A stretch of DNA of 63,292 nucleotides from Prevotella sp. GTDB taxonomy: Bacteria > Bacteroidota > Bacteroidia > Bacteroidales > Bacteroidaceae. The number at the start of each line of letters is the position of its first letter. Position 1 is the first letter of the stretch. The notes under the pieces were generated by a model. That model had not been told where the DNA came from. It did not search any database and saw only the letters and a list, made by a program, of their open reading frames with translations. The stretch covers positions 1 to 63,292 of the forward strand of contig JAFVHN010000027.1 of the NCBI GenBank assembly GCA_017474515.1, written 5' to 3'. The position numbers and the translations under genes were made by a program. Shown in pieces: positions 540 to 55,280 of the stretch.

Positions 540-768
540 TTGTCAAGATTTTTCAACGGATTTTTGGTTCCCCAAAGAGTTTGACCGCAATTTGAGGGGA
601 GGAATTTGCCAAATCTCTCCCTTCAAATTGGCAAATCTCTCCCCTCAAATTGCGGTCAAACTCAGTGGGATTTTCAAATAGCTGAAAATCAATGTTTTAC
701 GGAATGGGTGCAAAAACGGCCTGTTTTGTCAAATATTTTTACCAATTCTGACCTGTTTCGCTATCCAC
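540..768 (+). repeat. Dispersed 230-bp hairpin element, copy 1
   Basis: First of six clear copies of one element. It begins with TGTCAAGATTTTTCA at 541 and ends near the GCTATCCAC string at 760-768. The core is a perfect 25-bp inverted repeat, 577-601 pairing with 639-663, whose 37-bp spacer is itself an imperfect inverted repeat (ATTTGCC / GGCAAAT). The direct-repeat motif TGTCAA followed by a T-run occurs at both ends. It lies downstream of the secreted repeat protein. The rest of 141-839 shows no convincing gene; the small open frames there are spurious. Confidence 0.85.
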
Positions 769-839
769 ATTTTCGCTTCAGGAAACGACAGGTTGCCGGC
801 CTGGCCGACGCCGGTTTTTCCCCAGTTAAAGCGCCGTGC

Positions 840-3800
840 CTATTTCACTACGGTTTTCCTTACGCTCCCGTCGGCCCGCCTCATGATGGTGATGCCCCGT
901 ACGGCTTGTCCGTGGTTCAGCCTGCGTCCTTGCAGGTCGTAGGTCTCGGTAGTCGCGGCGTCGGCTATGGCGTTGACGGCGGTCGGCACGCCGGCATCAG
1001 GATTGGCGATGACGACGCCCAGGGCCATGTCTCCCCCGGCATCAAGCACGCACATGAAGTCGGCGTCGTAGTATCCGCCCTCGGGTTCAATGAACGCCAG
1101 TCCGTCGTTGAGCGTCACCTCCAGGAGGTTGAAGATGGTCCCCGCGAGCTCCACCCGCGTGCGTGCCCCCGAGAGCGTAAGCGTTTCCACGTCCCAGTTG
1201 CCTTTGATATCCTCGCAATTCACGATGGTGGGGCCGTTGATGTGGAGCGAAGCCCCGAAGAGCGAGATGTAGTTGCCGCCGAGGTCAACCTTTCCGTTTC
1301 CGCCCAGTGTCACGTCTTTTTCAATCGATATATAGCCGCCGTTGTCGGCTTTGTTCTGGCCGGTGAACACCACGTTGAGGTGTTCGCCGTCGAAGAGGTC
1401 GGTGACCGCCAGGAACATCTTCCCAGCGGGAGCCTCCGACACCAGGTTGTCGATGGTGAGCGTCTGCCTGTCGGCATCGTAAGAGGCTGACCCGCTGATG
1501 CTTGCCCCCTTGATGTCGGAGGCGTTGAAGTCGCACACGGGGATGCCGGCCACAAAGATGCCGAGCTTGTTGAGCAGCTTCACGCTTACGCCGTTGTCCC
1601 ATCCGTTGCCCTTTACATCCACCACCTTTTGCATTTGCGGGTCGTATTTTCCGCCCAGTGGCGTGAAGAAATCGAGCCCGTCGCCCAGCGGCACGCGATA
1701 GAAGTCCTTGATGGTGTTGGTGGCCTCCACCAATGTCGTGGCCCCCCGCAAGTAGAGCGACTCGTTGCCCGTTCCCACGAGGCTCCGCACGCTGACGGCC
1801 GCCCCGTCCTTGATGGTGAGGCTGCGGCCGTTGCCCACCTTGATGTCGCGCAGCACCTGTAGCGAGCCCGGCCCGGTGATTGTGGCGTCGGCCAGCAGGT
1901 AGAGTGCGACGGCGGAGGTGGTGTAGAGGTTGTTCGTGCCAATGAGTTTCAGCGTTAGGGTGCCGTTGAAGTCGGCACTCAGGCCGATGCACGGGCCGCT
2001 GATTTTCTCCATGTTCACGTTGCTGAGGGTGAGCGTCTTCGTGGCGGGGTCGTAGGCCACGGAGCCGCTCTTGACGGTGTTGTCGTTGAAGGCATCGTAG
2101 TTGTAGTTGTTCACTTCGGTGTCGCCCACGGTGATGCCGTAGCTTTTCACCGCCCCGATGGTCACTCCGGCCACCCTGTTCCCGTCGGCATCGGTCACAC
2201 ATCGCTTGCCGGCGTCGTAGTGTCCGCCCCTCGGCTTCAGCAGCACGAGGCCGTCGGTGAGGTTCATGGCCTGGAATCCCGACACGTTGTCGCTCAGGCT
2301 GACGTTGGTGGCGGCTCCCGAGAATGTCAGCGTTGAGGTGCTTGGCCCGCTGATGGTCTTGCCGTTCAGTTCGGCCACCGATATGTTGAGCGTCATGCCG
2401 CTCCCGGTGCTGATGTTGCCCGAAATCTTCCCCGGGCCGGTCAGCTCGGCGTTCTTGTTGAAGAACATGCTGCTGAAGGTTCCTTTTTGTAGGACGTTGT
2501 TGCCTTCGGCATAGACCGTCAGCTTGCCGTCGAAGTCAGCGGTCTGGTAAATGCACGACTCGTTGGTGTTGCTGATGGTGGCATTGTTCAGCGTCAGCCG
2601 GTGCCGGGCGGCATCATAGGAGGCCGTGCCCGTAATGAATTGGCCTTCAATGGCCGCGGCGTTGGTGTTGTTCACCATGAGCCCGCCCACCTTCAGGCCG
2701 TAATTCTCTACATATTCGATGGTTACGCCCTGTGCGGTGTTGCCGTTGGCATCCTTCACATATTTGGCCGTCGGGTCATAATAGCCCATGTTTGGTCGGC
2801 TGAAGTTCTGGCCGTCGTTGAAGAACACGCCGTGGAAGCCGGTGATGTTGGCAGAGAGTATCACCTTCGTGGCCGCGTCTTTCACGTTGACGTCGGCGTT
2901 GCCGTTGTTGCAGGCCAGGTAATTGGCTTCCACATGGCATCCGCCCTCGAAGGTGAGCATGATGTTTCCGGCCACCGCAATGGCGTTTTGACAACAGAGC
3001 TTTCCCGTGCCGCGCAGGTTGACATGGGTTAAGAAGTGCATGTCGTAGTAGCCCGAGGAGCTTGCCAGGCGGCTGGTGTTCACCGCTTCAACGTTGAGCG
3101 TTGACAGGTAGTATTGCCTGCCGTCGATGGCCGGGCTTCCGGCGTTGACGGTGGCGCCGTTCAGCACGAGGGTGTGCGTCATGCTGTTGTACCACACCGT
3201 GCCCGAGATGCCCGTGCCGTGGATGCCGTTGTCGTTTTCCGACGTCACGGCCACATCGCCCACCTTCAGGCCGTATTTGTGGAAGACCTTTGCGCTGGTG
3301 AACGTGTGGTATTGCGAGTTGGCATTATCTACAAATCCCAGTTCGTGCTTGCTTGAGTAGAACATTCCGCCCTGGTCCTGATAGCCCGGGCAGCTGCCCA
3401 CCACGCCGTAGTCGTTGCCAAGCGTGTCGAAAACGGCCATGTCGCCCATGGCCGCCGTCAGTCCCGAGAGGTTGAGGAAGGCTCCCTCGCCCAGCTTGAG
3501 CGTTTCCTGGCTGGTGCCGTTGGTGCCGTCGATGCCCCAGTTTCCGCTGGCCTGGATGGTGAGGTGCTCAATGGTGCAGGCGCAATACCTGTTGAGGTGG
3601 AGGCCGCTCTTCTCGCTGCCGCCCATGAGCACCAGGGCGGCACGGCCGTCGGCGTTGCCCTTGAACTTGATGTCCTGAAGGCTGTTTTCGTCAAGGCGGA
3701 TGGCGTTGTAGGCCGTACCCATGGCCCTGATGGTGTTTTGGCCATTGCAAACCACGGTGATGCCGTCACTGAGGATGGTGATGCCGTTGTAGCTGCTGGT

Positions 3801-3995
3801 AATGGTAAGGTTCACGGAGTTGAGCGTCAGGATTTTAGTATTGGCATCAAAGTAGATGCTGCCGCTTGAAAGATAGGGGGAGTTGACGGCGCCGGTGGCC
3901 GTGACCGACGTGTTGCCGACTTTCAGATAGGTGACTGCGCGCAGGCCCGTACTGACGATCAGCGCACACACGAGGAGGAGGAACTTCTGTTTCAT
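840..3995 (-). CDS. Large secreted protein of five repeated modules with a C-terminal sorting-like tail
   Basis: The 1051-residue product starts at the ATG at 3995, directly before a signal peptide (MKQKFLLLVCALIVSTGLRA); a start further upstream would bury that signal. Five modules of about 190-220 residues begin near residues 22, 241, 432, 619 and 811. Each opens with a 'YGLKVGxxxV' strand, followed by 'SGxxxYDxxxxxLTLxN' and later a 'GGxYDxxxxxVxDAxGN' segment. The composition (Gly, Asn, Thr, Val; alternating hydrophobics) suggests stacked beta-structure. The last 40 residues contain 'YDLQGRRLN' and end 'KTVVK', the tail found on many secreted Prevotella/Bacteroides proteins and resembling type IX secretion signals. 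Function is not recognised; a surface adhesin or glycan-binding role is inference. Transcription probably starts from the TATATTTGC at 4029-4037. Confidence 0.85.
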   Translation of the reverse strand: MKQKFLLLVCALIVSTGLRAVTYLKVGNTSVTATGAVNSPYLSSGSIYFDANTKILTLNSVNLTITSSYNGITILSDGITVVCNGQNTIRAMGTAYNAIRLDENSLQDIKFKGNADGRAALVLMGGSEKSGLHLNRYCACTIEHLTIQASGNWGIDGTNGTSQETLKLGEGAFLNLSGLTAAMGDMAVFDTLGNDYGVVGSCPGYQDQGGMFYSSKHELGFVDNANSQYHTFTSAKVFHKYGLKVGDVAVTSENDNGIHGTGISGTVWYNSMTHTLVLNGATVNAGSPAIDGRQYYLSTLNVEAVNTSRLASSSGYYDMHFLTHVNLRGTGKLCCQNAIAVAGNIMLTFEGGCHVEANYLACNNGNADVNVKDAATKVILSANITGFHGVFFNDGQNFSRPNMGYYDPTAKYVKDANGNTAQGVTIEYVENYGLKVGGLMVNNTNAAAIEGQFITGTASYDAARHRLTLNNATISNTNESCIYQTADFDGKLTVYAEGNNVLQKGTFSSMFFNKNAELTGPGKISGNISTGSGMTLNISVAELNGKTISGPSTSTLTFSGAATNVSLSDNVSGFQAMNLTDGLVLLKPRGGHYDAGKRCVTDADGNRVAGVTIGAVKSYGITVGDTEVNNYNYDAFNDNTVKSGSVAYDPATKTLTLSNVNMEKISGPCIGLSADFNGTLTLKLIGTNNLYTTSAVALYLLADATITGPGSLQVLRDIKVGNGRSLTIKDGAAVSVRSLVGTGNESLYLRGATTLVEATNTIKDFYRVPLGDGLDFFTPLGGKYDPQMQKVVDVKGNGWDNGVSVKLLNKLGIFVAGIPVCDFNASDIKGASISGSASYDADRQTLTIDNLVSEAPAGKMFLAVTDLFDGEHLNVVFTGQNKADNGGYISIEKDVTLGGNGKVDLGGNYISLFGASLHINGPTIVNCEDIKGNWDVETLTLSGARTRVELAGTIFNLLEVTLNDGLAFIEPEGGYYDADFMCVLDAGGDMALGVVIANPDAGVPTAVNAIADAATTETYDLQGRRLNHGQAVRGITIMRRADGSVRKTVVK

Positions 3996-4028
3996 AGTGG
4001 CAAAAATGATGTTATTACTCTTTTGTCT

Positions 4029-4037
4029 GCAAATATA
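4029..4037 (-). promoter_or_regulatory. Promoter -7 element of the modular secreted protein
   Basis: On the minus strand this reads TATATTTGC, matching the Bacteroidota TAnnTTTG element, 33 bases upstream of the ATG. Confidence 0.6.
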
Positions 4038-4151
4038 GGAAAAATAATGCAATTAGGCGGGTTAAAGATAAAAAATTTTGACAAAATGCCGAAAAATGCT
4101 TCGGAATTGACTTTTTTGCCTCCGTAAATATTGTTTTTGGCAAAAAATTCA

Positions 4152-4160
4152 TATCTTTGC
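4152..4160 (+). promoter_or_regulatory. Promoter -7 element of the lipoprotein gene
   Basis: TATCTTTGC, 32 bases before the ATG at 4193. An ATTG about 18 bases upstream is a weak -33 match. It is divergent from the 4029 promoter. Confidence 0.6.
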
Positions 4161-4192
4161 AATCAAAAGAATGACCCTAAAATAGTTGAGCA

Positions 4193-4954
4193 ATGAAGAA
4201 GAAAGGCCTCATGGCATTGCTGTTGACAGCCCTGGCCGTTGCCCTGGCCACCTCGTGCCGCGAGCAGGCGGCCCCCGAGGAAAAGCAGAATGTGGGAACA
4301 AGCACAAGCATTGAGGGCGACAGCACCCTCTACGGCTTGGCATGCTACGGATGCACCGACACCGTGTTGGTGTTCTTGCCGGGAAGGGGCGGCGACCCCG
4401 TTTCCTATAACATCTTGGAAGCCACCAAGAACCACCAAATCATAGGGCATCCGCAAGTGGGCGACTGGGTGGCCGTGATTCGCAACGGCAAAGACTCCAC
4501 CAAGGCCGACATGGTCATCAACCTCGACCTGTTGAAAGGCAACTGGGTGTCGCAGGTGATGCCCATGTTGCGCGAGCGCATTGAAACCAATGAGCAAGAC
4601 TCGGTCTATATGGCCGAGCAGGACTCGCTGGTGGCTGAGCTGATGAAGCCGATGGAAATAGGTTTCCAGCTGAAACGCCACTACATGGCACAACCCGTGG
4701 GGCGGCAATACGCCAGGCGAAATAGCGATGACAGCCCCGTCATCTATCCTTCCATACGCAATTATATCCAATGGCACGTCATCAACGGCAAGCTGGTGCT
4801 TACGGCCAACCTGGACGAGCTGGCAACGGCCTCCGACGGCAACAAGCCCCAGAAGGTGGAAAACGACACCGCCGAGTTCATCTTCCTGCTTCGCGATTCG
4901 CTACGCCTGCGCTTCAAAAACGGCGAGAGGGGGTACTACAGAAAGACCGAATAA
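4193..4954 (+). CDS. Putative lipoprotein of unknown function
   Basis: A 253-residue protein with a short lysine-rich N-terminus, a hydrophobic stretch and the lipobox-like 'ATSC' (Cys22), so probably an acylated, membrane-anchored lipoprotein. The mature part contains a 'YGLACYGCTDTVLVFLP' segment with a CxxC-like pair, then mixed alpha/beta sequence without a catalytic motif I can name. The start is the ATG that begins the signal peptide. It stands alone, divergent from the modular secreted protein and followed by a decayed repeat element. No function is assigned. Confidence 0.75.
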   Translation: MKKKGLMALLLTALAVALATSCREQAAPEEKQNVGTSTSIEGDSTLYGLACYGCTDTVLVFLPGRGGDPVSYNILEATKNHQIIGHPQVGDWVAVIRNGKDSTKADMVINLDLLKGNWVSQVMPMLRERIETNEQDSVYMAEQDSLVAELMKPMEIGFQLKRHYMAQPVGRQYARRNSDDSPVIYPSIRNYIQWHVINGKLVLTANLDELATASDGNKPQKVENDTAEFIFLLRDSLRLRFKNGERGYYRKTE

Positions 4955-4980
4955 AAGGCCGGGAAACAGTAGCAAGGACC

Positions 4981-5205
4981 GGCAAGATGTAAATATATTT
5001 CATATTTTTTTGGGACCAACGAAAGTTTGGCGGTAAATTTCAATGAGAAATATGGCACTTTTCCTTGTGAAAACTTAAAGATTTCACCCCGAAATCTTAG
5101 GGCAAACACCCCGAATGATTGCAGGTGCTGATTATCAAAGAGTTACAACGACACCCCCGAAACAGCGGAAATGTAAACATTTTTCATCGTTCCTAACCAT
5201 ACAAA
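4981..5205 (+). repeat. Probable decayed copy of the 230-bp hairpin element
   Basis: The order of motifs follows the intact copies in degenerate form: CAAGATG...TTTCATATTTTTTTGGG, then GTTTGGCGGTAAATTTC (intact: GTTTGACCGCAAATTTC), a CCCCGAAATCTT block, GGGCAAAC, GCTGATTATC (intact: GTTGATATTC), and TGTAAACATTTTTCA near the end. No long arm is preserved. The rest of the 4955-5259 gap shows nothing else. Confidence 0.5.
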
Positions 5206-5259
5206 CAGTCGCTTTTGAACAGATACATACAAACAGACAAAACTATAAAAACACTAATT

Positions 5260-7428: not shown

Positions 7429-7450
7429 AGACCCGTTAAGCTTTTAGGAG

Positions 7451-7523
7451 TTTAGGAGTTTGGACAATAGTTATAATTGCCTCGTTTTTATAATGGCTTA
7501 AAACTATTGTCCAAACTCCTAAA
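7451..7523. terminator. 22-bp inverted repeat between converging genes
   Basis: 7451-7472 pairs perfectly with 7502-7523. The arms contain the AGGAGTTTGGACAATAG string, related to the 'CTAAACTCC' strings found elsewhere between genes. It lies between the converging LRR gene and queF, so it could end transcription from both sides, although there is no run of T. Confidence 0.55.
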
Positions 7524-7546
7524 TTTCTTTTCAGTCTATAAAAAGA

Positions 7547-8008
7547 TTACTGGTGGGCGGCAAACCGTTGCTCGGCCAGTTGTTCATACTTGGTGCCCGG
7601 ACGTCCGTAGTTGGCCCACGGATGAATGCTGATGCCTCCGCGCGGCACAAACAGCCCCACCACCTCAATATACTTGGGGTCCATCAGGCGGATGAGATCC
7701 TTCATAATGGTGTTCACGCAATCTTCGTGGAAACTGCCGTGGTTGCGGAAACTCATGAGATAGAGCTTCAGACTCTTGCTCTCAACCATGCGCTCGCCGG
7801 GGATATAGAGAATCCTGATTTCGGCAAAGTCCGGCTGGCCGGTAATGGGGCAGAGGGTGGTGAACTCGGGGCAATTGAACTGCACCCAATAATCGTTTTC
7901 GGGGTTCTGGTTGGTGAAAGCCTCCAGCACTTCCGGTGTATAACTCTGCTTGTACTCCGACTTATGGCCAAGGGCTTTCAGGCCTTCTTGTTTTCTGTCT
8001 TTTGTCAT
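7547..8008 (-). CDS. queF: NADPH-dependent 7-cyano-7-deazaguanine (preQ0) reductase
   Basis: A 153-residue protein matching the short unimodular QueF type. It reduces the nitrile of preQ0 to the amine of preQ1 in queuosine tRNA modification, in the cytoplasm. The catalytic Cys is C53 in '[10 protein letters not shown]' with the acidic partner D60; the family motif 'ESKSLKLY' lies at 76-83, followed by '[11 protein letters not shown]'. The start is the ATG at 8008, because the upstream in-frame ATG would reach into the promoter region. It is divergent from the thioredoxin gene; each has its own TAnnTTTG element (8063-8071 for queF). Confidence 0.95.
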
Positions 8009-8062
8009 TTTTTCTTGTTTTGATAAAGGGGGTTGTTCAAGCACCCCTGTGGGAAATGGAAT

Positions 8063-8071: not shown

Positions 8072-8114
8072 CAATTTTTTCCGCAATTATCCCCCTTGTT
8101 TCACAAAAAATGCC

Positions 8115-11351: not shown

Positions 11352-11481
11352 GGCAAAAAAAACGAATTACAACCCTTTGGCCCCAAGAAAATAATTTCCA
11401 CCCCCAATAAACCCCGTTTTGAAAACGTTTCCCGCCGTTTTTACAAACAAGGTGGGCTTAAAAGTAAATTCTCTTTTTGCA

Positions 11482-11711
11482 GTGGATAGCGGCATGGGGA
11501 AAAATTGGTAAAAATATTTGACAAAACGGGCTGTTTTGCGTTGTTTTTGTAAATCGTTGAAATTCAGCTGTTTGCAAACGGCCCTGAGTTTAACCTCAAA
11601 TTTCCAGGTGAAATCTTCAATTTCTCTCCTCTCAATCTTCAAGATCTCTCCCCTCAATTTGCGGTCAAACTTCATGGGACAACCCAAAAATTTTGAAAAA
11701 TCTTGACAAAA
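11482..11711 (-). repeat. Dispersed 230-bp hairpin element, copy 2
   Basis: Reverse orientation relative to copy 1. It starts with GTGGATAGC, then AATTGGTAAAAATATTTGAC, and ends with AAAATCTTGACAAAAC. The arm nearest the right end (CTCTCCCCTCAATTTGCGG) is intact, while the other (GAGTTTAACCTCAAATTTCC) has decayed, so the long hairpin is weakened. It lies between the divergent antiporter and RND operon promoters. Confidence 0.8.
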
Positions 11712-17958: not shown

Positions 17959-18187
17959 GATTTTTATTTTAAAGTTGTTAATGTTTAAAGGTTTTACTTT
18001 TGCCTCCGCCGCCGGGACCTTTTTCAATCCCCAACCGCATCGGCGTTCACTTAGTAAAGTGCAATTTGCGTGCCAACAGGAAAATGCCGACAACCTGTCA
18101 CTTCTTCTGTGTCATTCTGTCATAGTTGTACATCATATACCTTATATAATATATAAAACCAGCCATCGCAAAAACAATAATTCCGGC

Positions 18188-18417
18188 GTATAGCGACATG
18201 GATAAAAAATGGTAAAAAAAATTGACAAAACGAGCGATTTTTTGCCGTTTTTCCAAGTGATTGAATATCAGTGGTTTGCAAATTTTGCAAAGTTTGGCTG
18301 CAAATTTCGGGGAGAGATTTGGCGTTTTGAGAGGAGAGATTTGGCAAATCTCTCCCCGAGATTTGCGGTCAAACCTCCTGGGGGGAGATAAATATCATGA
18401 AAAATCTTGACAAAATG
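18188..18417 (-). repeat. Dispersed 230-bp hairpin element, copy 3
   Basis: Reverse orientation: GTATAGC, GGTAAAAAAAATTGACAAAA, GATTGAATATCAGTGGTTTG, then the core TTTCGGGGAGAGATTTG ... CAAATCTCTCCCCGAGATTT, ending AAAAATCTTGACAAAATG. The inner stem is intact, but the outer left arm has changed (GTTTGGCTGC against GCGGTCAAAC). It sits between the divergent hsp20 and acetyltransferase genes. In the 726-base gap 17946-18671 the other contents are AT-rich strings (18431-18469) and tandem promoter-like sites. Confidence 0.85.
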
Positions 18418-19714: not shown

Positions 19715-21427
19715 ATGACCACAGAAAGACCAATCATTGAGTGTGTGCCCAATTTCAGCGAGGGCCGCAACCAGCAAGTCATTAACGACATCACCCAGGC
19801 CATCAGCTCGGTGGGCGGTGTGCGCCTGCTCGATGTTGACCCGGGCGAGGCCACCAACCGCACCGTGGTGACCTTCGTGGGCGACCCCGAGTCGGTGGTT
19901 GAAGCCGCCTTCCGCGGTGTGAAGCGCGCCGCCGAGCTCATCGACATGCGGCGGCACCACGGTGCCCATCCGCGCATGGGTGCCACCGACGTGCTGCCCC
20001 TCATCCCCGTGAGCGGCATCACCCTTGAGGAGTGTGCCCAGCTGGCCCGCGGTCTGGCCCGCCGCATTGCCGACGAGTTGCTCATTCCCTGCTATTGCTA
20101 CGAGGCCGCCGCCACGGTGCCCGAGCGCAAGAACCTCGCCGTGTGCCGCGAAGGGGAATACGAGGCCCTGGCCGAGAAACTCACCACCCCCGGCCGCCAG
20201 CCCGACTACGGAGCGCGGCCCCTCGACGAGCAGGTGGCGCGGACAGGGTGCACCGCCGTGGGCGCCCGCGACTTCCTCATTGCCGTGAACTTCAACCTGA
20301 ACACCACCTCCACCCGTCGCGCCAACGCCATTGCCTTCGACGTGAGGGAGAAGGGGCGGCCCGTCAGGGAGGGGCACCCCATCACCGGCAAGCCCAAGAA
20401 AGATGCCCAGGGCAATGTCATTATGCAACCCGGCACGCTGAAATGCACCAAGGCCATAGGCTGGTTTATCGACGAATATGGCATTGCCCAGGTGTCGATG
20501 AACATGACCAACCTCGGCGTTACGCCCCTCCACGTGGCCTTCGACGAGGTGTGCCGTTGTGCGCAAAACCGCGGCATACGCGTCACCGGCACCGAGATAG
20601 TGGGGCTCATTCCCAAGAAAACGCTCATCGACGCCGGCAAGTATTTCCTGCGCAAGCAAAACCGGTCGGAGGGCATTCCCGAGGACGACATCATCAGAAT
20701 GGCCGTGAAGTCCATGGGCCTCGACGACCTGAAGCCCTTCAACCCGCGCGAGAAAGTCATTGAATACCTCCTGGAGGACGCTCAGAAAGGCGGAAAGGCA
20801 AGGCTGGTGGACCTCACCGTGAAAGGCTTTGCCGAAGAAACGTCGCGCGAGAGTGCCGCCCCCGGCGGAGGCACCATCTCGGCATATATGGGCGCACTGG
20901 GCGCCGCTCTGGGCACCATGGTTGCCAACCTGTCGTCGCACAAGGCAGGGTGGGACGAGCGCTGCCCCGAGTTTTCCGAATGGGCCCAGCGCGGACAGAA
21001 CATCATGGCCCGCCTGCTCCACCTGGTGGACGAGGACACCGAGGCCTTCAACCGCGTCATGGCCGCCTTCGCCATGCCCAAGAAGAGCGACGAGGAGAAG
21101 GCCTTGCGGCAGGAAGCCATCGAAGCGGCCACCCTCTATGCCGCCCAGGTGCCGTTGCTCACCATGAAGACGGCGCTGGAAGCCTTCCCCCTCTGCCTCT
21201 ATATGGCCCGCGAGGGCAATCCCAATAGCGTGTCGGACGCCGGCGTGGGTGCCCTGGCGCTGAGGGCCGCCGTGCACGGTGCCGCCCTCAACGTGCGCAT
21301 CAATGCCGCGTCGTTGAAGGACAAGACGGCCGCCGCCCGGCTGGCCGACGAAGCCCGTGCCCTGGCCGAAAAGGCCGACCAGGCCGAGAAGGAAGTCATC
21401 GACGCCGTTGAAAATAAATTTTCATAG
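19715..21427 (+). CDS. ftcD: Bifunctional formimidoyltransferase-cyclodeaminase
   Basis: A 570-residue fusion. Residues 1 to about 300 are glutamate formimidoyltransferase ('VPNFSEGRN', 'DPGEATNRTVVTFVG', 'HHGAHPRMGATDVLPLIP'), moving the formimino group of formiminoglutamate to tetrahydrofolate. Residues of about 365-560 are the cyclodeaminase ('SAAPGGGTISAYMGALGAAL'), releasing ammonia and giving 5,10-methenyl-THF. The order is that of the mammalian bifunctional enzyme; other Bacteroidota carry the two as separate genes. It heads the histidine-degradation cluster, producing one-carbon units that the nearby metF/metH pathway could use. Confidence 0.95.
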   Translation: MTTERPIIECVPNFSEGRNQQVINDITQAISSVGGVRLLDVDPGEATNRTVVTFVGDPESVVEAAFRGVKRAAELIDMRRHHGAHPRMGATDVLPLIPVSGITLEECAQLARGLARRIADELLIPCYCYEAAATVPERKNLAVCREGEYEALAEKLTTPGRQPDYGARPLDEQVARTGCTAVGARDFLIAVNFNLNTTSTRRANAIAFDVREKGRPVREGHPITGKPKKDAQGNVIMQPGTLKCTKAIGWFIDEYGIAQVSMNMTNLGVTPLHVAFDEVCRCAQNRGIRVTGTEIVGLIPKKTLIDAGKYFLRKQNRSEGIPEDDIIRMAVKSMGLDDLKPFNPREKVIEYLLEDAQKGGKARLVDLTVKGFAEETSRESAAPGGGTISAYMGALGAALGTMVANLSSHKAGWDERCPEFSEWAQRGQNIMARLLHLVDEDTEAFNRVMAAFAMPKKSDEEKALRQEAIEAATLYAAQVPLLTMKTALEAFPLCLYMAREGNPNSVSDAGVGALALRAAVHGAALNVRINAASLKDKTAAARLADEARALAEKADQAEKEVIDAVENKFS

Positions 21428-21548
21428 TTAGGAGATATGAGTTATGATACATAAAATTGAAAAGGTGAAAAATTGAAAAGGTGAAAAAGCCTGCCGCCGT
21501 AAATCATAATTCATAACTAAGAATTCATACCTAAAAATATCATTTTTA
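21428..21548. repeat. Composite short intergenic repeats between ftcD and hutU
   Basis: Contains AATTGAAAAGGTGAAAA twice, then GCCTGCCGCC and the strings AATTCATAACT/AATTCATACCT. The same classes occur at 38893-38977, 53803-54098 and 61641-61885. It separates two genes probably cotranscribed; no promoter is obvious. Confidence 0.6.
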
Positions 21549-25067: not shown

Positions 25068-25134
25068 AACCCCAAATCGGTCATTAGAAAGCCGGACCAT
25101 GAATGATGGTACGTCTTATAACCGATTTGGGGTT
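25068..25134 (+). terminator. Terminator of the hut cluster
   Basis: A perfect 14-bp stem, AACCCCAAATCGGT (25068-25081) with its inverse at 25121-25134, followed by TTTCTTTAT. It begins 9 bases after the hutH stop. Confidence 0.75.
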
Positions 25135-25151
25135 TTTCTTTATCTTGAGAC

Positions 25152-25382
25152 GGGTAGCTGGACAGGTAAAAATTGGTAAAAATTTTTGACAAAATGCGTG
25201 GCTTTTGCCCAGCCTTTGTAATTTGTTGAATTTCAAGGGTTTGCAAATTGTCTTTGGTTTGACCGCAAATTTCGGGGAGAGATCTTGAAGATTTCGAGGA
25301 GAGATCTTCAAGATTTCTCCCCTCAATTTGCGGTCAAACCTTTTGGAGTAGCCCAAAAACCATGAAAAATCTTGACAAAATG
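25152..25382 (-). repeat. Dispersed 230-bp hairpin element, copy 4
   Basis: Reverse orientation, full length: GGGTAGC, AATTGGTAAAAATTTTTGAC, the core GGTTTGACCGCAAATTTCG ... CAATTTGCGGTCAAACC, and the end AAAAATCTTGACAAAATG. The inner variable part is the ATCTTGAAGAT / ATCTTCAAGAT type, unlike copies 1, 3 and 6, which carry TTTGCC/TTGGCAA. It lies between the converging hutH and 25517-26026 genes. Confidence 0.87.
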
Positions 25383-25450
25383 GGGTTCTTGCGCAGAGGT
25401 ACAAAGACAGCCCCCAAATCAACTATCCCAATGACCGATTGGGGATAAAA

Positions 25451-31121: not shown

Positions 31122-31157
31122 GCCGGCGACCGGAACCAGTGTCGCGATAAGGAAAAA

Positions 31158-31370
31158 TGTCAAGATTTTTCATGAAAATTTCCCACCTGCCATGAGCTTG
31201 ACCGCAAATTTCGGGGAGAGATCTTCAAGATTTCTCCCCTCAATCTTCAAAATCTCTCCCCGAAATTTGCGGTCAAAACCAAGGCGATTTGCAAGCCGTT
31301 GATATTCAGTGGTTTACAAAATTGTTGAAAAATCAGAGATTTTGTCAATATTTTTTACCATTTTCACGCC
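31158..31370 (+). repeat. Dispersed 230-bp hairpin element, copy 5
   Basis: Forward orientation: TGTCAAGATTTTTCATG, core TTGACCGCAAATTTCGGGG ... CCCCGAAATTTGCGGTCAA (a perfect 25-bp inverted repeat), GTTGATATTCAGTGGTTTAC and the end TTTGTCAATATTTTTTACC. The inner part is the CTTCAAG type. It is a little shorter (213 bp) at its right end. The gap 31122-31472 holds nothing else besides the histidine-kinase promoter. Confidence 0.87.
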
Positions 31371-31459
31371 CCCAAAATCCATCATTTCCGGCCGCTGCCA
31401 AAGGTCTAAAGAAAACTTAATTTCTTGGCATGGTTGGCCCGTAATTCAGAAAAAATATT

Positions 31460-42145: not shown

Positions 42146-42320
42146 CGGCATTTTTCTTTTTTTTTCTGAATTTCAGGAGTTCAGAAACAGTGCCGGCGGC
42201 CGTCCATTTCCTTTTTTCCCATTTCCCCTTTCCCTTTTTTCGAGGTGGCCGCGCCGAAAAGCACTGTCTTTTTGTACTTTCGAAGGCGCTATCCACTTAG
42301 TCCTGCCCTGACTCTTTTTG

Positions 42321-42432
42321 CATCCGACTGCAGTCCAGACCGCATCCGACTGCAGTCCAAACCGCATCCGACTGCAGTCCAAACCGCATCCGACTGCAGT
42401 CCAAACCGCAAAACGACTGCAGTCGGATGCGG
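42321..42432. repeat. Four 22-bp tandem repeats followed by an inverted partial copy
   Basis: The unit CATCCGACTGCAGTCCAAACCG occurs at 42321-42342 (one change), 42343-42364, 42365-42386 and 42387-42408. An inverted copy, CGACTGCAGTCGGATGCGG, follows at 42414-42432 and can pair with any unit. It lies between the regulator and susC. There are no spacers, so this is not a CRISPR array. No similar string was seen elsewhere in the window. Confidence 0.9.
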
Positions 42433-47652: not shown

Positions 47653-47790
47653 AAGGTGAAACAGTGAAGGTGAAAAGGTAAAAAAGTAAAGTTGATAGAT
47701 TGAATAGTTGATAGATTGAAAAAAAGAAAAAATAATAGTCCACTTTCCCTTTTTTTTACCTTTCACCTTTAAACTTCAAAACTCCCATTA
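47653..47790. repeat. Low-complexity intergenic strings between susD and the glycan-binding protein
   Basis: Repeated GTGAAA/GGTGAAAA units, the 15-base string TTGATAGATTGAAxA twice, then poly-A tracts and a CTTTTTTTTACC string. Similar G/A-rich strings occur at 21440-21490 and 53803-53990. No gene. Confidence 0.6.
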
Positions 47791-47812
47791 ACGTCAATAA
47801 AACAAGAAAGAT

Positions 47813-49327: not shown

Positions 49328-49351
49328 CTCGCAATTAAGTGTTTGCCTGTT

Positions 49352-50890
49352 ATGAAGACATCTGCAAATCTCTTTTTCAGAACCATGGTGGCTGCCTTTG
49401 CGGCAGCTGCCATGGTGGCTTGCGGCGGCAGCGACGACCCTGAGCATGACATTCCCGTCAACGAAGAACCGAAGCCCGTTGACCCCGTGACGCCTTCTCC
49501 GGCCAGCAGCTACAACGAGCAATATCGCCCGCAGATACACTTCACCCCGGCCCGCAACTGGATGAACGACCCCAACGGCATGGTCTATGTCGATGGCACC
49601 TATCATCTGTTCTATCAGTACAACCCGCAAGGCAACGACTGGGGAAACATGTCGTGGGGCCATGCCACTTCCACCGACCTCATGCACTGGACGGAACAGG
49701 CGGTGGCACTGACGCGCGACGAGCTGGGCGACATCTTCTCGGGCTCTGCCGTCATTGACAAGGACAACACCGCAGGCTTCGGAGCCGGTGCCATGGTAGC
49801 ACTCTACACCTCGGCCAGCGGCGCACAGCAGCAGTCCATCGCCTACAGCACCGACGGCGGCAAGAACTTCACCCGCTACAGCGGCAACCCCGTCATTCGC
49901 AACAACGACGACAACCTGCGCGACCCGAAGGTGTTCTGGCATGAGCCCACCAAGCGCTGGGTGATGGCCTTGGCAAAAGGCTGGAAGATGGGCGTTGAGT
50001 TCTACGCCTCGTCAGACCTGAAGTCGTGGCAGCACCTGAGCACGTTCTTCGTGCCCCTCATTGGCCGTCCCAGCCTGCAGTGGGAGTGCCCCGACCTCAT
50101 CCAGATAGGCAACAAGTGGGTGCTCCTTGTCAGCGTCAACCCCGGCGGCCCCATTCTCGGCTCGGGCATGATGTATTTCGTGGGCAATTTCGACGGCAAG
50201 GAGTTTACGGCCGACAATGTCACCGATGCGCAAACGCCCGTGGAACCCGCCTGGCTCGACTATGGCATGGACAACTATGCCGGTGTCACCTGGAGCAATA
50301 CCGGCACCCGCCGCATCATGATTGGCTGGATGAACAACTGGTCCTACAGCGGAGCCGTTCCCTGTTCGCCGTGGCGCTCGGCCATGACCCTGCCCCGCGA
50401 GCTGAAACTCACGGAATACGACGGCAAGCCGCTGCTCTGCGCACCCGTTGTTGACGAAATCGACAAGATTGCCGGACAGTGGAAAGCCGCCTCGGGCATC
50501 CTCGACGTGAAGGACGCCTACCAGCTGCGCCTCACCCTGAAGCTCGACAAGGGCAGCACCATCGCCCTCGGCAACGACCAGGGCGAGCAGTTCACCTTCG
50601 ATGTCAGTCCTTCCGCACGCACGCTGATAGCCCACCGCACGTCGGCCAGCGGCAAGACCTCGTTCAACGGCACCTTCTCCATCCCTTCCATGCAGGCCCC
50701 GCTGAACACCGCCGGCTCAACCGTGGTGCTCGACATCTTTGTGGACCGCTCATCGGTGGAGCTGCTGACGAAAGACGGCACCATGTCGATGACCAACCTC
50801 GTCTTTCCCACCGTGCTTTACGACCGCGTGACGGTGACCGGTGCCGATTGCGACATCCAGTATCGTCCGCTCAACCGCATCTGGAATTAA
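49352..50890 (+). CDS. GH32 fructan hydrolase, lipoprotein
   Basis: A 512-residue lipoprotein (ATG at 49352; an upstream ATG adds three residues). Lipobox 'AMVAC' at Cys24, then 'GGSDDPEHD' suggests surface display. GH32 beta-propeller motifs: 'NWMNDPNG' with nucleophile D73, 'LRDPKVFW' with transition-state stabiliser D191, 'WECPDL' with acid/base E245. A C-terminal beta-sandwich ('IFVDRSSVELLTKDG') follows. The position (BT1760 equivalent) suggests an endo-acting surface fructanase, but exo activity cannot be excluded from sequence. Confidence 0.92.
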   Translation: MKTSANLFFRTMVAAFAAAAMVACGGSDDPEHDIPVNEEPKPVDPVTPSPASSYNEQYRPQIHFTPARNWMNDPNGMVYVDGTYHLFYQYNPQGNDWGNMSWGHATSTDLMHWTEQAVALTRDELGDIFSGSAVIDKDNTAGFGAGAMVALYTSASGAQQQSIAYSTDGGKNFTRYSGNPVIRNNDDNLRDPKVFWHEPTKRWVMALAKGWKMGVEFYASSDLKSWQHLSTFFVPLIGRPSLQWECPDLIQIGNKWVLLVSVNPGGPILGSGMMYFVGNFDGKEFTADNVTDAQTPVEPAWLDYGMDNYAGVTWSNTGTRRIMIGWMNNWSYSGAVPCSPWRSAMTLPRELKLTEYDGKPLLCAPVVDEIDKIAGQWKAASGILDVKDAYQLRLTLKLDKGSTIALGNDQGEQFTFDVSPSARTLIAHRTSASGKTSFNGTFSIPSMQAPLNTAGSTVVLDIFVDRSSVELLTKDGTMSMTNLVFPTVLYDRVTVTGADCDIQYRPLNRIWN

Positions 50891-50950
50891 CAATCTCCCA
50901 ATCTCCTAAACTTCTAAACTCCTAAACTCCTAAACTCCTAAAAAAACACA
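50891..50950. repeat. CTAAACTCC strings between the GH32 genes
   Basis: Four or more copies of CTAAACTCCTAAACT type units; the same units recur at 54001-54090 and, in inverted form, at 7441-7523. Confidence 0.65.
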
Positions 50951-50955
50951 TCCCC

Positions 50956-52620
50956 ATGAAGAAACTTTTGATTATACTGATGGCGGTGGCTTCCTTCACG
51001 GCAGCACGGGCGCAGGTGGCGCCCCAGGTGCTGGGAGAGAAGCACGTCATGCTGAAAATAGGCGACGACGCACCGTCTGCCTCCAAATATATTCTCCTGC
51101 CCGTGCAAGAGAATGAGGAGATAGCCGCCATTGCCGCCCTCGACAACCGCAACATGATGGTGCAGCGCCTCAACGTCAAGCTGGCCATCGACCGCGTGGA
51201 CTACTGGGTGCCCTTTGAGCTGAAGGGAACCCGCCTGCTCGACATCGAGTTCCATGGCGACCGCCGGCAGAAAGGCGCCGTGGCTGAGTTCGTGTGCTGG
51301 AAGGAAATAAAGTTCTCCAATACTTTCGACACCTCCAACCGCGAGCACTTCCGCCCCCTCTACCATCACACGCCGCAATACGGCTGGATGAACGACCCCA
51401 ACGGCATGTTCTATAAGGACGGCGTCTGGCACCTCTATTACCAGTTCAACCCCTACGGCTCACAGTGGGAAAACATGACGTGGGGACATTCCACCTCCAC
51501 CGACCTCATCCACTGGGAACCGCAGCCCCTGGCCCTGGAGGCCGACTGGCTGGGCGCCATCTTCTCCGGCTCGTGCATCACGCGCGGCAACGACGTGGTG
51601 GCGTTCTACACCTCGGCCGGAATGCACCAGACGCAGTCGATGGCCGTATCGAAGGACAACGGCCGCACCTTCACGAAATATGCCGGCAACCCCGTCATCA
51701 CTTCCGACAAGCCCGACTTCCGCGACCCCAACGTCTTCTGGCACGAGGCCACCAGCCGCTGGATAATGATTTTGGCCGTGGGACAAGAGATGCAGCTCTA
51801 TTCCTCCGCCGACCTGAAGGCATGGAAATACGAGTCGTCCTTCGGCCAGGAGTATGGCAACCACGGCGGCGTGTGGGAGTGCCCCGACCTGTTCAAGCTG
51901 GGCGACAAGTGGGTGTTGTTGTGCAACATCAACCCCGGCGGACCCTTCGGAGGCAGCGCCACGCAATACTTCATCGGGCAGTTCGACGGCCACCGCTTCA
52001 CTTGCGAGTCGATGCCGAAGGTCACCAAGTGGCTCGACTACGGCAAGGACCACTATGCCACCGTCTCCTTCTACAACGCCCCCGACAACCGCCGCGTGGT
52101 GCTGGCATGGATGTCCAACTGGCAGTATGCCAACCAGGTGCCCACCAAGCAGTTCCGTTCCGCCAACTCCATTCCCCGCGACCTCGGACTCTTCACCCAC
52201 GGCGAGGAGACCTATGTCAGCGTGGTGCCCTCCAAGGAGATGCTCGCCGTGCGCGGGCAGAAGGTGAAGAAGCCCACCGAGGCCTGCGAGATTGTCGTTG
52301 ACGTGAACAGCCAGGCCGAGATAGTGCTCTCCAACGCCAAGGGCGAGCAGGTCGTCATGAAGTACGACGGCGCCAAGGGCTCCTTCCTCATGGACCGCAC
52401 CAAGAGCGGCGACGTCTCCTTTAGCGAGGCCTTCCCCTGCGTCACCACGGCGCCCACCTACGGCACCGTGAAGCAGCTGCGCCTCTTCATCGACCGCTGC
52501 AGCATAGAGGCCTTCGATGCCGAAGGCAAGGTGGCCATGACCAACCTCGTGTTCCCCTCAGAGCCGTACAACACCATCAAGGTGAAGGGCGGAAAAGCCA
52601 CGATATATGAAATCCGGTAA
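50956..52620 (+). CDS. GH32 fructan hydrolase with N-terminal DUF4980-like domain, periplasmic
   Basis: A 554-residue protein with a cleavable signal (residues 1-20, 'FTAARAQ') and no lipobox. Residues of about 25-118 form a beta-rich domain like DUF4980 ('YILLPVQENEEIAAIAALDN', 'YWVPFELKGTRLLDIEFHG'). The GH32 domain carries D147 ('WMNDPNG'), D257 ('FRDPNVFW') and E308 ('WECPDLF'), and a C-terminal sandwich ('LFIDRCSIEAFDAEG'). Probably releases fructose from oligosaccharides in the periplasm, the BT1759 position. It is 65 bases after the other GH32 gene. Confidence 0.93.
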   Translation: MKKLLIILMAVASFTAARAQVAPQVLGEKHVMLKIGDDAPSASKYILLPVQENEEIAAIAALDNRNMMVQRLNVKLAIDRVDYWVPFELKGTRLLDIEFHGDRRQKGAVAEFVCWKEIKFSNTFDTSNREHFRPLYHHTPQYGWMNDPNGMFYKDGVWHLYYQFNPYGSQWENMTWGHSTSTDLIHWEPQPLALEADWLGAIFSGSCITRGNDVVAFYTSAGMHQTQSMAVSKDNGRTFTKYAGNPVITSDKPDFRDPNVFWHEATSRWIMILAVGQEMQLYSSADLKAWKYESSFGQEYGNHGGVWECPDLFKLGDKWVLLCNINPGGPFGGSATQYFIGQFDGHRFTCESMPKVTKWLDYGKDHYATVSFYNAPDNRRVVLAWMSNWQYANQVPTKQFRSANSIPRDLGLFTHGEETYVSVVPSKEMLAVRGQKVKKPTEACEIVVDVNSQAEIVLSNAKGEQVVMKYDGAKGSFLMDRTKSGDVSFSEAFPCVTTAPTYGTVKQLRLFIDRCSIEAFDAEGKVAMTNLVFPSEPYNTIKVKGGKATIYEIR

Positions 52621-52644
52621 ACCGTAATTAGCAAACAAATCATT

Positions 52645-53799
52645 ATGAAGAATAAATCCATATACCTCGTCCCGGTGATGCTCTGCTTCTTCTGCATGGG
52701 CTTCGTGGACCTGGTGGGCATTGCCTCCAACTATGTGAAGGAAGACCTGGCGCTGTCCGACTCCGTGGCCAACGTGTTCCCCTCGCTGGTGTTCTTCTGG
52801 TTCCTCATTTTCAGCGTGCCCACGGGAATGTTGATGAACAAGATAGGTCGCAAGAATACCGTGCTGCTGTCGCTCGTCGTCACCGTGGTGTCGCTGTTCA
52901 TTCCCCTGCTCGGCCATTCCTTTGCCGTCATGCTGGTGGCTTTCTCCCTGCTGGGCATCGGCAACGCCCTCATGCAGACGAGCATCAACCCGCTGGCCAT
53001 GCTCATCATCGGCGACAAGAACCTGGCCTCCACGCTCACCTTCGGGCAGTTTGTAAAGGCCATCGCCTCCTTCCTGGCACCTTATCTCGCCATGTGGGGC
53101 GCCACGCAGGCCATGCCCTCCTTCGGCTACGACTGGCGCGTGCTCTTCCTCGTATATTTCGTGGTGGGCATTCTGGCCACCGCCCTCCTGTGGGTGACGC
53201 CCATCCATGAGGAGATGCGCGAGGGCAAGTCGTCGTCGTTCATGGACTGCATCAGGCTGCTCAGCAAGCCCATCGTGCTGCTCTCCTTCTTCGGCATCAT
53301 GTGCCATGTGGGCATCGACGTGGGCACCAACACTACGGCCCCCAAGCTGCTCATGGAGCGCGTGGGCATGTCGCTCAACGATGCCGCCTTCGCCACCTCG
53401 CTCTATTTCATCTTCCGTACCGTGGGCGCACTCACAGGCTCCTTCTTCCTTCGTGTGCTGCGCACCCGCTGGTTTTTCATCATCAGCGTATGCCTGATGG
53501 CCGCATCCATGATACTGATGTTTGGCGGACAGACGAAAGCCGTGCTCTACACGGCCATCGCGCTCGTGGGCTACGGCAACTCCAACATCTTTTCCATGGC
53601 CTTCTCCGAGGCGCTGCTTTCCGTGCCCGACAAGCAGAACGAGGTCTCCGGCCTTATGATTATGGGTCTCTTCGGCGGCACCATCTTCCCCCTCATCATG
53701 GGCTTCATGAGCGATGCCATGGGGCAGGCAGGGGCAGTGGCCGTCATGGCCGTCGGCGTCATCTACCTCTTCACCTATATTCCGCAAGTAAAACACTGA
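52645..53799 (+). CDS. MFS sugar transporter, probable fructose permease
   Basis: A 384-residue inner-membrane protein with 12 predicted helices. MFS loop 'NKIGRKNTV' lies between helices 2 and 3, and the second half begins after a central loop near residue 190 ('EEMREGKSSSF'). Short FucP-like transporters hold this place in Bacteroidota fructan loci (BT1758 equivalent). It would bring fructose from the periplasm into the cytoplasm for the kinase encoded next. It follows the GH32 gene by 24 bases. Confidence 0.88.
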   Translation: MKNKSIYLVPVMLCFFCMGFVDLVGIASNYVKEDLALSDSVANVFPSLVFFWFLIFSVPTGMLMNKIGRKNTVLLSLVVTVVSLFIPLLGHSFAVMLVAFSLLGIGNALMQTSINPLAMLIIGDKNLASTLTFGQFVKAIASFLAPYLAMWGATQAMPSFGYDWRVLFLVYFVVGILATALLWVTPIHEEMREGKSSSFMDCIRLLSKPIVLLSFFGIMCHVGIDVGTNTTAPKLLMERVGMSLNDAAFATSLYFIFRTVGALTGSFFLRVLRTRWFFIISVCLMAASMILMFGGQTKAVLYTAIALVGYGNSNIFSMAFSEALLSVPDKQNEVSGLMIMGLFGGTIFPLIMGFMSDAMGQAGAVAVMAVGVIYLFTYIPQVKH

Positions 53800-53802
53800 T
53801 TT

Positions 53803-54098
53803 TAAGTGAAGAGTGAAGAGTGAAAAGTGAAAAATGAAGGCCCCCTCATGTCCCCCCTTGGGGGGAAGACGTACGGCCCAAAGGCTCCCCTCCTTACGGG
53901 AGGGGCCGGGGGTAGGCTAAGAGTGAAAAATTTGCTGCCGCCATCGGTTAAGTGAAAAGTGAAGAGTGAAGAGTGAAAAATTTGCTGCCGCCATCAGTAA
54001 TGTCTAAACTCCTAAACTTCTAAACTCCTAAACTTCTAAACTCCTTTGTTATGTCTAAACTCCTAAACTTCTAAACTCCTAAACTTCAAAAAAAATAA
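53803..54098. repeat. Large composite of short intergenic repeats before the fructokinase gene
   Basis: In order: GTGAAGAGTGAAAAGTGA strings, the C/G-rich string (GTCCCCCCTTGGGGGGAAG and ACGTACGGCCCA), a TCCCCTCCTTACGGGAGGGG hairpin, the block TTTGCTGCCGCCAT twice (53941-53956 and 53980-53993), then repeated CTAAACTTCTAAACTCC. No gene or promoter. This is the longest gap inside the fructan operon. Confidence 0.75.
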
Positions 54099-54099
54099 T

Positions 54100-54972
54100 A
54101 TGAAACAATATGTAGTAGGACTCGGCGAAGTACTCTGGGACGTACTTCCCGAAGGAAAGAAACTGGGCGGAGCCCCCGCCAACTTTGCATACCATGCCGG
54201 ACAGTTCGGCCTTGACACGCTGGCCGTCAGCGCCCTCGGCGAGGACGCCCTGGCCGAAGAAACCATCCAGGCCCTCCGCGAGAACGGCCTCCACTACCTC
54301 CTGCCGCGCGTGGCCTTCCCCACCGGCACCGTCCAGGTGACGCTCTCCGGCGACGGCATCCCCGCCTACGAAATCAAGGAGAACGTGGCGTGGGACAACA
54401 TTCCCTACACCCCCGAAATCGCCAACGTAGCACGCCAGTGCCGCGCCGTATGCTTCGGCTCCCTGGCACAGCGCAACGCCGTGTCGTGGGCCACCATCCG
54501 CCAGTTCCTCGACGACACCCCCGCCGACTGCCTCAAAATCTTCGACATCAACCTGCGCCAGCAGTTCTACACCAAGGAGGTCATCGAGCAGTCGCTACAG
54601 CGGTGCAACATTCTCAAGATTAACGACGAGGAGCTTGTCGTCATCAAACGCATGTACGGCTACGACGACCTCGACATGCGCGACATCTGCGAGAAGATGC
54701 TCGCCGCCTACCAGCTCAGGATGCTCGTGCTCACCTGCGGCACCAACGGCTCCTATGTCTTCGCGCCCGGCATCACCTCCTTCCAGGAAACGCCGCGCGT
54801 CACCGTTGCCGACACCGTGGGCGCCGGCGACTCCTTCACGGGGTCCTTCTGCGCCGCCATCCTCAACGGCAAGCCCATCGAGGAGGCACACCGCACCGCC
54901 GTCACCGTGTCTGCTTTCGTATGCACACAAAACGGCGCCATGCCCAAATACCCCGAAGAGCTGCGCAAGTAA
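54100..54972 (+). CDS. Fructokinase (PfkB family)
   Basis: A 290-residue cytoplasmic sugar kinase. The N-terminal 'GLGEVLWDVLPEGKKLGGAPANFAYH' is typical of PfkB fructokinases, with Gly-Gly-Ala at the sugar site. The C-terminal signature 'DTVGAGDSFTGSF' holds the catalytic base D244. It makes fructose-6-phosphate from imported fructose, as the BT1757 equivalent. It is last in the fructan locus and is followed by a strong terminator at 54992-55035. Confidence 0.94.
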   Translation: MKQYVVGLGEVLWDVLPEGKKLGGAPANFAYHAGQFGLDTLAVSALGEDALAEETIQALRENGLHYLLPRVAFPTGTVQVTLSGDGIPAYEIKENVAWDNIPYTPEIANVARQCRAVCFGSLAQRNAVSWATIRQFLDDTPADCLKIFDINLRQQFYTKEVIEQSLQRCNILKINDEELVVIKRMYGYDDLDMRDICEKMLAAYQLRMLVLTCGTNGSYVFAPGITSFQETPRVTVADTVGAGDSFTGSFCAAILNGKPIEEAHRTAVTVSAFVCTQNGAMPKYPEELRK

Positions 54973-54991
54973 ACAGCAAAACACACCACGA

Positions 54992-55035
54992 AACAATGCC
55001 AAGGCACGACCACCAGTCAGCGCCTTGGCATTGTT
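54992..55035 (+). terminator. Terminator of the fructan locus
   Basis: AACAATGCCAAGGC (54992-55005) pairs with 55022-55035, followed by a T-rich run; 20 bases after the fructokinase stop. Confidence 0.85.
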
Positions 55036-55051
55036 TTTGTATCATGCCGTT

Positions 55052-55280
55052 TTGTCAAAATTTTTCAATCGTCTTGACTTCTTGGAAATAGTTTGACGGC
55101 AAATCGAGGGCCTCAATTTGCCAATTTGCCCACCTCAATTTGCCAAATCTCTCCCCTCAAATTGCCGTCAACCCCGGGGCGTTTTTTAAACCGTTGATAT
55201 TCAGCGCTTTGTAAAATAGCGGGGGATTTGGTCTTTTTGTCAAATATTTTTACCAATTCTTGCCTACGTCGCTACCCGTC
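55052..55280 (+). repeat. Dispersed 230-bp hairpin element, copy 6
   Basis: Forward orientation: TGTCAAAATTTTTCAATC, then GTTTGACGGCAAAT and the facing ATTGCCGTCAA, where other copies have GACCGC and GCGGTC: both arms changed together. The inner region has CAATTTGCCA twice and a third GCCAATTTGC, then GTTGATATTCAGCGCTTTG and TGTCAAATATTTTTACCAAT, ending GCTACCCGTC. The rest of the 421-base gap 54973-55393 holds only the fructokinase terminator and an AT-rich leader for the sigma factor. Confidence 0.87.

Follow-up and report, generated by a model that had tools for sequence, protein, structure and literature searches.

The 63,292-nucleotide window analysed here, the whole contig JAFVHN010000027.1 (C56) of a Prevotella sp. 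draft genome (G000; 3.51 Mb in 118 contigs), carries six full copies and one decayed copy of an intergenic element of about 230 bp. The family in this genome appears to be a single species' variant within a wider class of Prevotella elements that would include the published repeat PINSR (Naito et al., PMC4755523). We suggest, at a probability of about 0.4, that this DNA element is a helically phased protein-binding array, homogenised between copies and spaced by exclusion or loss. All seven places in the window were noticed in an earlier reading of the sequence alone, the original prediction, and all were confirmed by a covariance model (R1) together with repeat mapping, as were the order of parts in the copies and the use of both orientations (four copies on the plus strand, three on the minus strand).

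The element has a fixed architecture. A left end box (TTTTGTCAAGATTTTTCA) is followed by a 23-bp spacer, a module array of about 83 bp, a 9-bp spacer and a 34-bp near-palindrome (TTTGCAA..C.TTGAnAtTCAA...TTACAAA, with GTTGATATTCAG at its centre); then come a 19-bp spacer, the right end box (TTTTGTCAAATATTTTTACC) and a less conserved tail ending near CGCTAyCC. The TGTCAA and T-run at both ends of the G000 copies form direct repeats, not terminal inverted repeats. Across 56 G000 copies the mean majority-base frequency is 0.96 in the left box, 0.76 in the palindrome and 0.83 in the right box, against 0.50-0.59 in the spacers, whose lengths are fixed despite their little conserved sequence. The inner part is built of 22-bp modules: lag 22 gives the best autocorrelation over 53 copies, 0.50 versus a mean of 0.26 at other lags. 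Module orientation varies among copies, with both directions occurring, and the long hairpin arises because modules lie in opposite orientations. The hairpin had been predicted as the defining feature of the family, a view that we abandon, as arrays read by eye in several other species lack one long hairpin. The consensus structure that RNAalifold proposed for the copies was poor because of the two module orientations, and a hand-made stem was used for R1 instead.

R1 has 209 columns and was built from 35 copies, namely five window copies and 30 genome loci, among them L001, which is a sixth window copy (25152). The profile search proposed in the original prediction gave end-to-end matches of 197-209 bp for all 150 G000 candidates scored, the best 150 of 2040 first-look candidates. 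Independently of the model, a left-end-plus-arm pattern allowing up to three mismatches matched G000 215 times (112 forward, 103 reverse), and its reversed control never. A search of 799,915 bases, covering the window plus parts of seven other contigs, found 58 copies, which scale to about 250 in the genome, in line with the several hundred anticipated. To arrive at the 58, we removed from the 123 cmsearch rows antisense hairpin matches, those scoring below 28 bits and, for one copy split by a stretch border, its second half. That border-split copy is also excluded from the 56-copy identity set, as is a dubious 28-bit match, C59:40460, which is counted in the uniform-placement and gene-context tests and left out of the gene-gap spacing test.

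These copies are diverse, yet nearly constant in length. Mean pairwise identity is 0.667 and none of the 1540 pairs reaches 90%, in a short-read draft metagenome-assembled genome (MAG) that may lack near-identical copies; 53 of the 56 nonetheless have a core of 206-209 bp. We counted 2803 substitutions from the consensus against 34 indel events, and 53 of 56 copies have no indel or a single one. The near-constant length that had been predicted was borne out, with 205-206 bp between the end boxes in all 33 copies within the mismatch limits (one of them has a second reading of 214 bp, and window copies 4 and 6 and the decayed copy lie outside these limits). The absence of a conserved reading frame likewise held, the best of the six frames being open in only 17 of 56 copies.

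The original prediction recognised no named family, and here it needs correction, as a homologous published repeat exists. PINSR is a 188-bp repeat of unknown role, present in 177 and 184 copies in two genomes, reported in P. intermedia, P. nigrescens, P. falsenii and P. disiens, located downstream of tnaA and implicated in rearrangement (Naito et al., PMC4755523). Built from G000 only, R1 was run on 697 kb of genome G108 and returned 30 matches at E≤1 (10 at E≤0.01, best 5.2e-4); by hand comparison 29 of these, corresponding to 29 of the 43 copies there, are PINSR-type copies and the thirtieth (E 0.98) is not. There were no matches in 297 kb of genome G007. Among 35 other genomes of the genus, taking the best 40 candidates in each, only G017 gave weak matches (three, best E 9.5e-5). 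These belong to a high-copy family in G017 (335 first-look candidates, with all 40 of those scored matching), which has matches at 10 places in P. nigrescens FDAARGOS_1486, with 79.5% identity across 87% of the query. In G108 the PINSR-type core is 186 bp, versus 188 bp published, and a tryptophanase-like open reading frame ends 231 bp before one of the copies. The G017/G108 family is most likely PINSR itself, judged by length, identity and tnaA context, the printed PINSR consensus being a figure.

Since R1 from G000 finds the PINSR-type copies of G108, the window family would be a diverged homologue of PINSR, apparently outside the published P. intermedia/nigrescens clade, to judge by hutH relatives. 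With a core of about 208 bp and best hutH relatives among other Prevotella sp. MAGs, we treat the family as related to PINSR and do not call it PINSR. The four best relatives of G000 hutH are Prevotella sp. MAGs at 91-93% protein identity (from a list that possibly omits the G000 record itself), with sheep omasum and cattle rumen as the sources of two. In kind the two families agree: the G000 family is, like PINSR, intergenic and non-coding, lacks terminal inverted repeats and exceeds 100 copies (about 250 versus 177-184 per genome), and the PINSR-type copies of G017 and G108 share its order of parts. They differ in module sequence, right-end-box spacing, gene context and length (core of about 208 bp in G000, 186 bp in G108, 188 bp published), and by eye the end boxes of PINSR-type copies can be read as inverted. 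Section 3.4 of the PINSR paper makes no mention of 22-bp modules, even spacing or concerted evolution (PMC4755523); relative to that account, the new findings are the even spacing, the retention of sites whose copies show no orthology signal in sequence, and the spread through the genus. Among the papers listed on Prevotella intergenic or palindromic repeats, from a library outside which most subscription papers and all bioRxiv preprints lie, none but Naito et al. deals with this class, as judged by title and abstract. A separate repeat of about 160 bp (TTTTCTCGTTCCTCGAAAAGTGCGTTTTCTCGCC and similar) adjoins several PINSR-type copies of G017 (L119, L122, L125, L127, L129) and also occurs at position 20247 of the C2 stretch of G108.

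The class appears to extend well beyond these three genomes. A 34-bp palindrome pattern drawn from G000 and G017, with up to three mismatches, occurs in 175 of 398 Prevotella genomes, with at least five matches in 27 (hand count) and a maximum of 116; the reversed control never exceeded three. G007, G024 and G003 had no match, and de novo detection of long hairpins returned two in 320 kb of G007 (neither of this family, by eye) versus 39 in 379 kb of G000. Beside the palindrome, loci read by eye contain module arrays whose word differs by species and is consistent within a genome, and end boxes like TTTTGTAAAGATAnTTC. Lag 22 was the best autocorrelation lag in all seven sets analysed (G000, G108, G372, G403, G219, G361 and G170, leaving out the different-looking array of L227) and, on both sides of the palindrome, in six G016 loci tested separately, making eight of eight Prevotella sets. 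When a single locus was taken from each genome, the lag-22 test was passed by 15 of the 30 and failed by the other 15, against a pass rate of 6.75% for 2000 random positions. Of 14 loci in G170 and G372, 13 have their right end box 50-51 bp beyond the palindrome; the remaining one, L227, has it at 18 bp. Across the order the palindrome occurs in 65 of 198 genomes, G000 included, with at most 16 matches in any other than G000, and none of 13 loci from three genomes outside the genus passes the lag-22 test.

Copies are evenly spaced in G000, a feature that, like the species-specific modules, the original prediction had not noticed. Among 57 copies and their 49 neighbour gaps the smallest gap is 4447 bp, so that none falls under 4 kb, where random placement in gene gaps of the same class predicts 11.2 and none of 5000 simulations is as low; the coefficient of variation (CV) of spacing is 0.57 versus 0.86 simulated (P 0.0004). 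Under uniform placement, with C59:40460 kept, there is one short gap versus 13.1 expected. Strand is seemingly random, 25 of 50 neighbours sharing it. The predicted intergenic location was upheld, and by gene calls made in this analysis copies are present in 24 of 53 divergent gaps, 6 of 51 convergent gaps and 25 of 329 tandem gaps in G000 (three of the 58 copies, having no neighbouring gene call on one side, were left out). G108 has the opposite preference, with 3 of 39 divergent, 17 of 38 convergent and 23 of 179 tandem gaps occupied, which makes a fixed promoter-side or terminator-side role unlikely. A divergent-promoter or supercoiling role as the general function, suggested by G000, was dropped for the same reason.

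Comparison of G017 with G108, whose matched flanks are 85-93% identical, indicates that sites are kept while sequences are not tied to them. Ten of the 14 distinct G017 flanks that could be mapped (L060 and L102 are one copy, counted once) abut a G108 copy within 90 bp, nine of them in the expected orientation; of the other four, one abuts a fragment, one leaves the fetched stretch and two have no copy. Both flanks are in place at only two sites, L061 and L115. Orthologous copies are 0.796 identical (seven pairs, with L108 in two), exactly as are non-orthologous ones (0.796), compared with 0.815 within G108; the value within G017, 0.865, is inflated because the G017 copies were picked for their similarity to a single copy and one of them is present twice. 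Six orthologous pairs contain 232 substitutions and one gap, and seven flanks, part of them coding, contain 199 and 7 (three flanks below 60% identity were left out). Kept sites without an orthology signal are the product of concerted evolution or of turnover in place. One G017 copy, L108, has its left and right flanks at different G108 copies (C1:140230 and C1:204614), which are in opposite orientation and 64 kb apart, so that a rearrangement breakpoint lies inside the element; this arrangement is probably an inversion by recombination between elements. Elsewhere, a 1.9-kb segment with one PINSR-type copy (L129, 1157-3072) is absent from G108, where the sequence is continuous (position 91023 of the C2 stretch).

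We suggest that the element works as DNA. A protein with a lineage-changing recognition sequence would occupy neighbouring modules along the same face of the helix, a 22-bp period being about two helical turns. A second factor on the palindrome and end boxes would complete a nucleoprotein node with multiple sites, and such nodes would recur at intervals of about 14 kb. Copies would arise within a lineage and then be inherited in place, homogenised by recombination between copies, which the L108 flanks at two G108 copies would fit. Even spacing would reflect exclusion or loss of copies near an existing one, with exclusion acting via target immunity, selection or uptake drive. The node might serve the host, in chromosome organisation or insulation, or the element alone. 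A bolder version, a genus-wide barcoded site system in which evenly spaced, fixed-length nucleoprotein arrays with a lineage-changing word would organise the chromosome or mark self DNA and would be kept in step by recombination, seems to us unlikely in that full form.

Several observations weigh against the protein-array reading. No array-binding protein was found, and homogenisation by recombination alone could hold length constant without any binding. A family of this kind does not show up in many Prevotella: R1, which is tuned to G000 modules, has no match among the best 40 candidates in each of 34 of the 35 other same-genus genomes searched, and 223 of 398 Prevotella genomes have no palindrome match. 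Spacing is less even in G108, with two gaps under 2 kb versus 8.3 expected and a CV that is not significant for the 43 full copies alone (P 0.11) and has P 0.015 with the six fragments that this genome holds beside them. Gene context differs between the two species, and no single regulatory role fits. Finally, R1 found no match in 43 hut loci of G000 relatives (338 kb), of which the four nearest are at a four-fold-site distance of 0.48-0.66 from G000. One of the relatives, UBA2756, keeps the order hutH / minus-strand gene / hutI, plus a second, paralogous minus-strand gene, and has an apparent empty site, 52 bp between two stop codons versus 457 bp including copy 5 in the window. The family was therefore gained in the line of G000 or lost in that of its relatives. 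For copy 4, an orthologous site sought via a GNAT gene was not syntenic in G007.

The closest competitor is a non-autonomous mobile element once spread in trans by an enzyme binding the 22-bp sites, limited by target immunity and now quiescent in G000. We consider this possible, ranking it a close second to the protein array, and the two are not mutually exclusive. A mobile element would account for the short UBA2756 gap and for a family that has hundreds of members in some lineages but was not seen in others, and target immunity would yield even spacing. Tn7 and Mu ends are arrays of 22-bp transposase sites, and both elements show target immunity; by analogy the module array may be of this kind, although here it is one part of an element of about 230 bp and no matching transposase was found (Mu-transpos_C matched none of 14 genomes, but the control genomes gave no match either). 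The economy would be that of a miniature inverted-repeat transposable element (MITE), yet the G000 copies have no terminal inverted repeats. The BrickBuilt MITE of Porphyromonas gingivalis, with 19 copies of 1 to 22.8 units of 23 nt (PMC4596501), is similarly intergenic, with tandem units of near-equal size between a conserved leader and tail, but is variable in length and has terminal inverted repeats like those of IS5-family elements, in contrast to the fixed length and direct-repeat end boxes in G000. Against this reading stand the lack of any pair at 90% identity or more, which the short-read MAG may hide, the absence of a Y1 transposase from 10 of 14 genomes, and the few indels, where a dead element should have gathered many. 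Target duplication was not seen, and the UBA2756 site is too diverged to reveal one.

The Y1 enzyme is also central to a comparison with repetitive extragenic palindromic (REP) units and the bacterial interspersed mosaic elements (BIMEs) they form, which are abundant, extragenic, palindromic, species-specific and alternating in orientation, all traits that recur here. We nevertheless find spread by a REP-associated Y1 transposase (RAYT) hardly credible. G000 has a single Y1_Tnp match (C24:23184, 35.5 bits), and among the 150 listed G000 copies the nearest on that contig is about 19 kb away. The same model (PF01797) matched E. coli and four other controls and had one or more matches in G000, G016, G219 and G007, the first three of which carry the palindrome; it had no match in the other 10 of 14 genomes, eight of which carry the palindrome too, including G108, a two-contig, 99% complete genome with the PINSR-type family, for which the REP/RAYT explanation is largely refuted as far as the Pfam model reaches. 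The G000 element is also larger than a REP unit, and its fixed length and module number are unlike those of BIMEs. G016 has three Y1 transposase-like stretches within 60 kb (L219, L222, L224), one of them with a stop. More probable than REP spread, and still quite improbable, is that the element is a structured RNA, a promoter or a bidirectional transcription terminator. The hairpin is strong, with 88.1% of stem cells pairing, above all 500 shuffles, and 38 double-change cells versus 25.3; stem pairs with changes on both sides show no excess, however (10 versus 9.0 in shuffles), and related sequences beat shuffles in this test even without structure. Rfam at gathering score finds three tRNAs in the whole window and no match to the element, and at E≤1 in six loci its 29 matches are all sub-threshold, mostly to miRNA hairpins. 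Four of the seven sigma-70-like promoter matches between 24900 and 31500 of the window are in or overlap copies 5 and 6 (25145-25173 and 31321-31354), the end box TTGACA being the first hexamer in one, but Bacteroidota are not, to our knowledge, users of the sigma-70 consensus scanned. None of 14 terminator-like sites in that interval is in either copy. PINSR-type copies in G108 favour 3' ends, whereas those in G000 are found preferentially in divergent gaps.

We judge it doubtful, if somewhat more probable than an RNA or transcription signal, that the element marks self DNA for uptake or recombination, in which case biased uptake (molecular drive) would maintain its species-specific words and even them out. 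Uptake sequences have species dialects, and the species-specific words here are coherent within each genome. In Haemophilus and Neisseria such sequences are relatively even in spacing and rare in acquired DNA and in coding sequence (PMC7811141), and the even spacing of the G000 copies would fit, as would the report that most strain-specific transposon regions are free of PINSR (PMC4755523). Uptake sequences are, however, short single motifs found about every 1 kb, with no array, caps or fixed internal spacing, and the Prevotella element, with its conserved caps, has about seven times the length of the 31-bp full uptake motif and, at about one per 14 kb, is more than 10 times rarer per kb (PMC7811141).

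In the window, the R1 matches to the six full copies arise by construction, all six being in the build set. Copy 1 spans 538-771 on the plus strand (model core 540-748, 211 bits), with its module array, which folds as a hairpin with arms 90% complementary, at 579-661 (model columns 40-122), its near-palindrome at 671-704 (columns 132-165) and its right end box at 724-743. Copy 2 (4987-5193, plus strand) is decayed yet full length, matching model columns 1-209 from outside the build set at 63 bits (E 1.6e-6). Copies 3 (11479-11711; core 11502-11709, 181 bits) and 4 (18185-18417; core 18206-18413, 202 bits) are full-length, on the minus strand and between divergent genes. Copy 5, at 25152-25382 on the minus strand (core 25170-25378, 230 bits), is full-length in a convergent context, the neighbourhood that UBA2756 keeps without the element; its near-palindrome is at 25214-25247 and its array, which folds as a hairpin, at 25257-25339. 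On either side of it lie the stretches CCCCAAATCGGTCAT ... ACCGATTTGGGG (about 25070-25132) and CCCCAAATC ... GACCGATTGGGG (about 25410-25450), look-alikes of which stand beside other copies (L002, L004, L005, L006, L013; by eye), as if part of a larger composite. Copy 6 (31156-31390, plus strand; core 31157-31364, 210.5 bits; near-palindrome 31288-31321) has a full-length core and a final 25 or so bases unlike those of other copies, and copy 7 (55050-55282, plus strand; core 55052-55259, 161 bits) is full-length.

The window contains other repeats. A second dispersed repeat (AAGTGAAGAGTGAAGAATTTGCTGCCGCC and similar), with some inverted pairs, is found at 21463-21507, 53907-54001 and 61643-61687 and in L066, L067, L069 and L075. 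About four units of a 22-bp tandem repeat, GCATCCGACTGCAGTCCAAACC, occupy 42320-42407, with the period of the module array and an unrelated sequence, and tandem octamers (CTAAACTC/CTAAACTT) are found at 50883-50950 and 53997-54107.

A repeat published for four related species appears to be one dialect of an element widespread in a large genus. Its near-fixed length at 33% divergence, 22-bp phase, species words and kilobase-scale exclusion pose a testable question, namely which protein reads the words, and leave the cause of even spacing to be decided among immunity, selection and drive. Copies also seem to serve as sites of recombination, and a word peculiar to one species and present in hundreds of copies would be a ready species marker.

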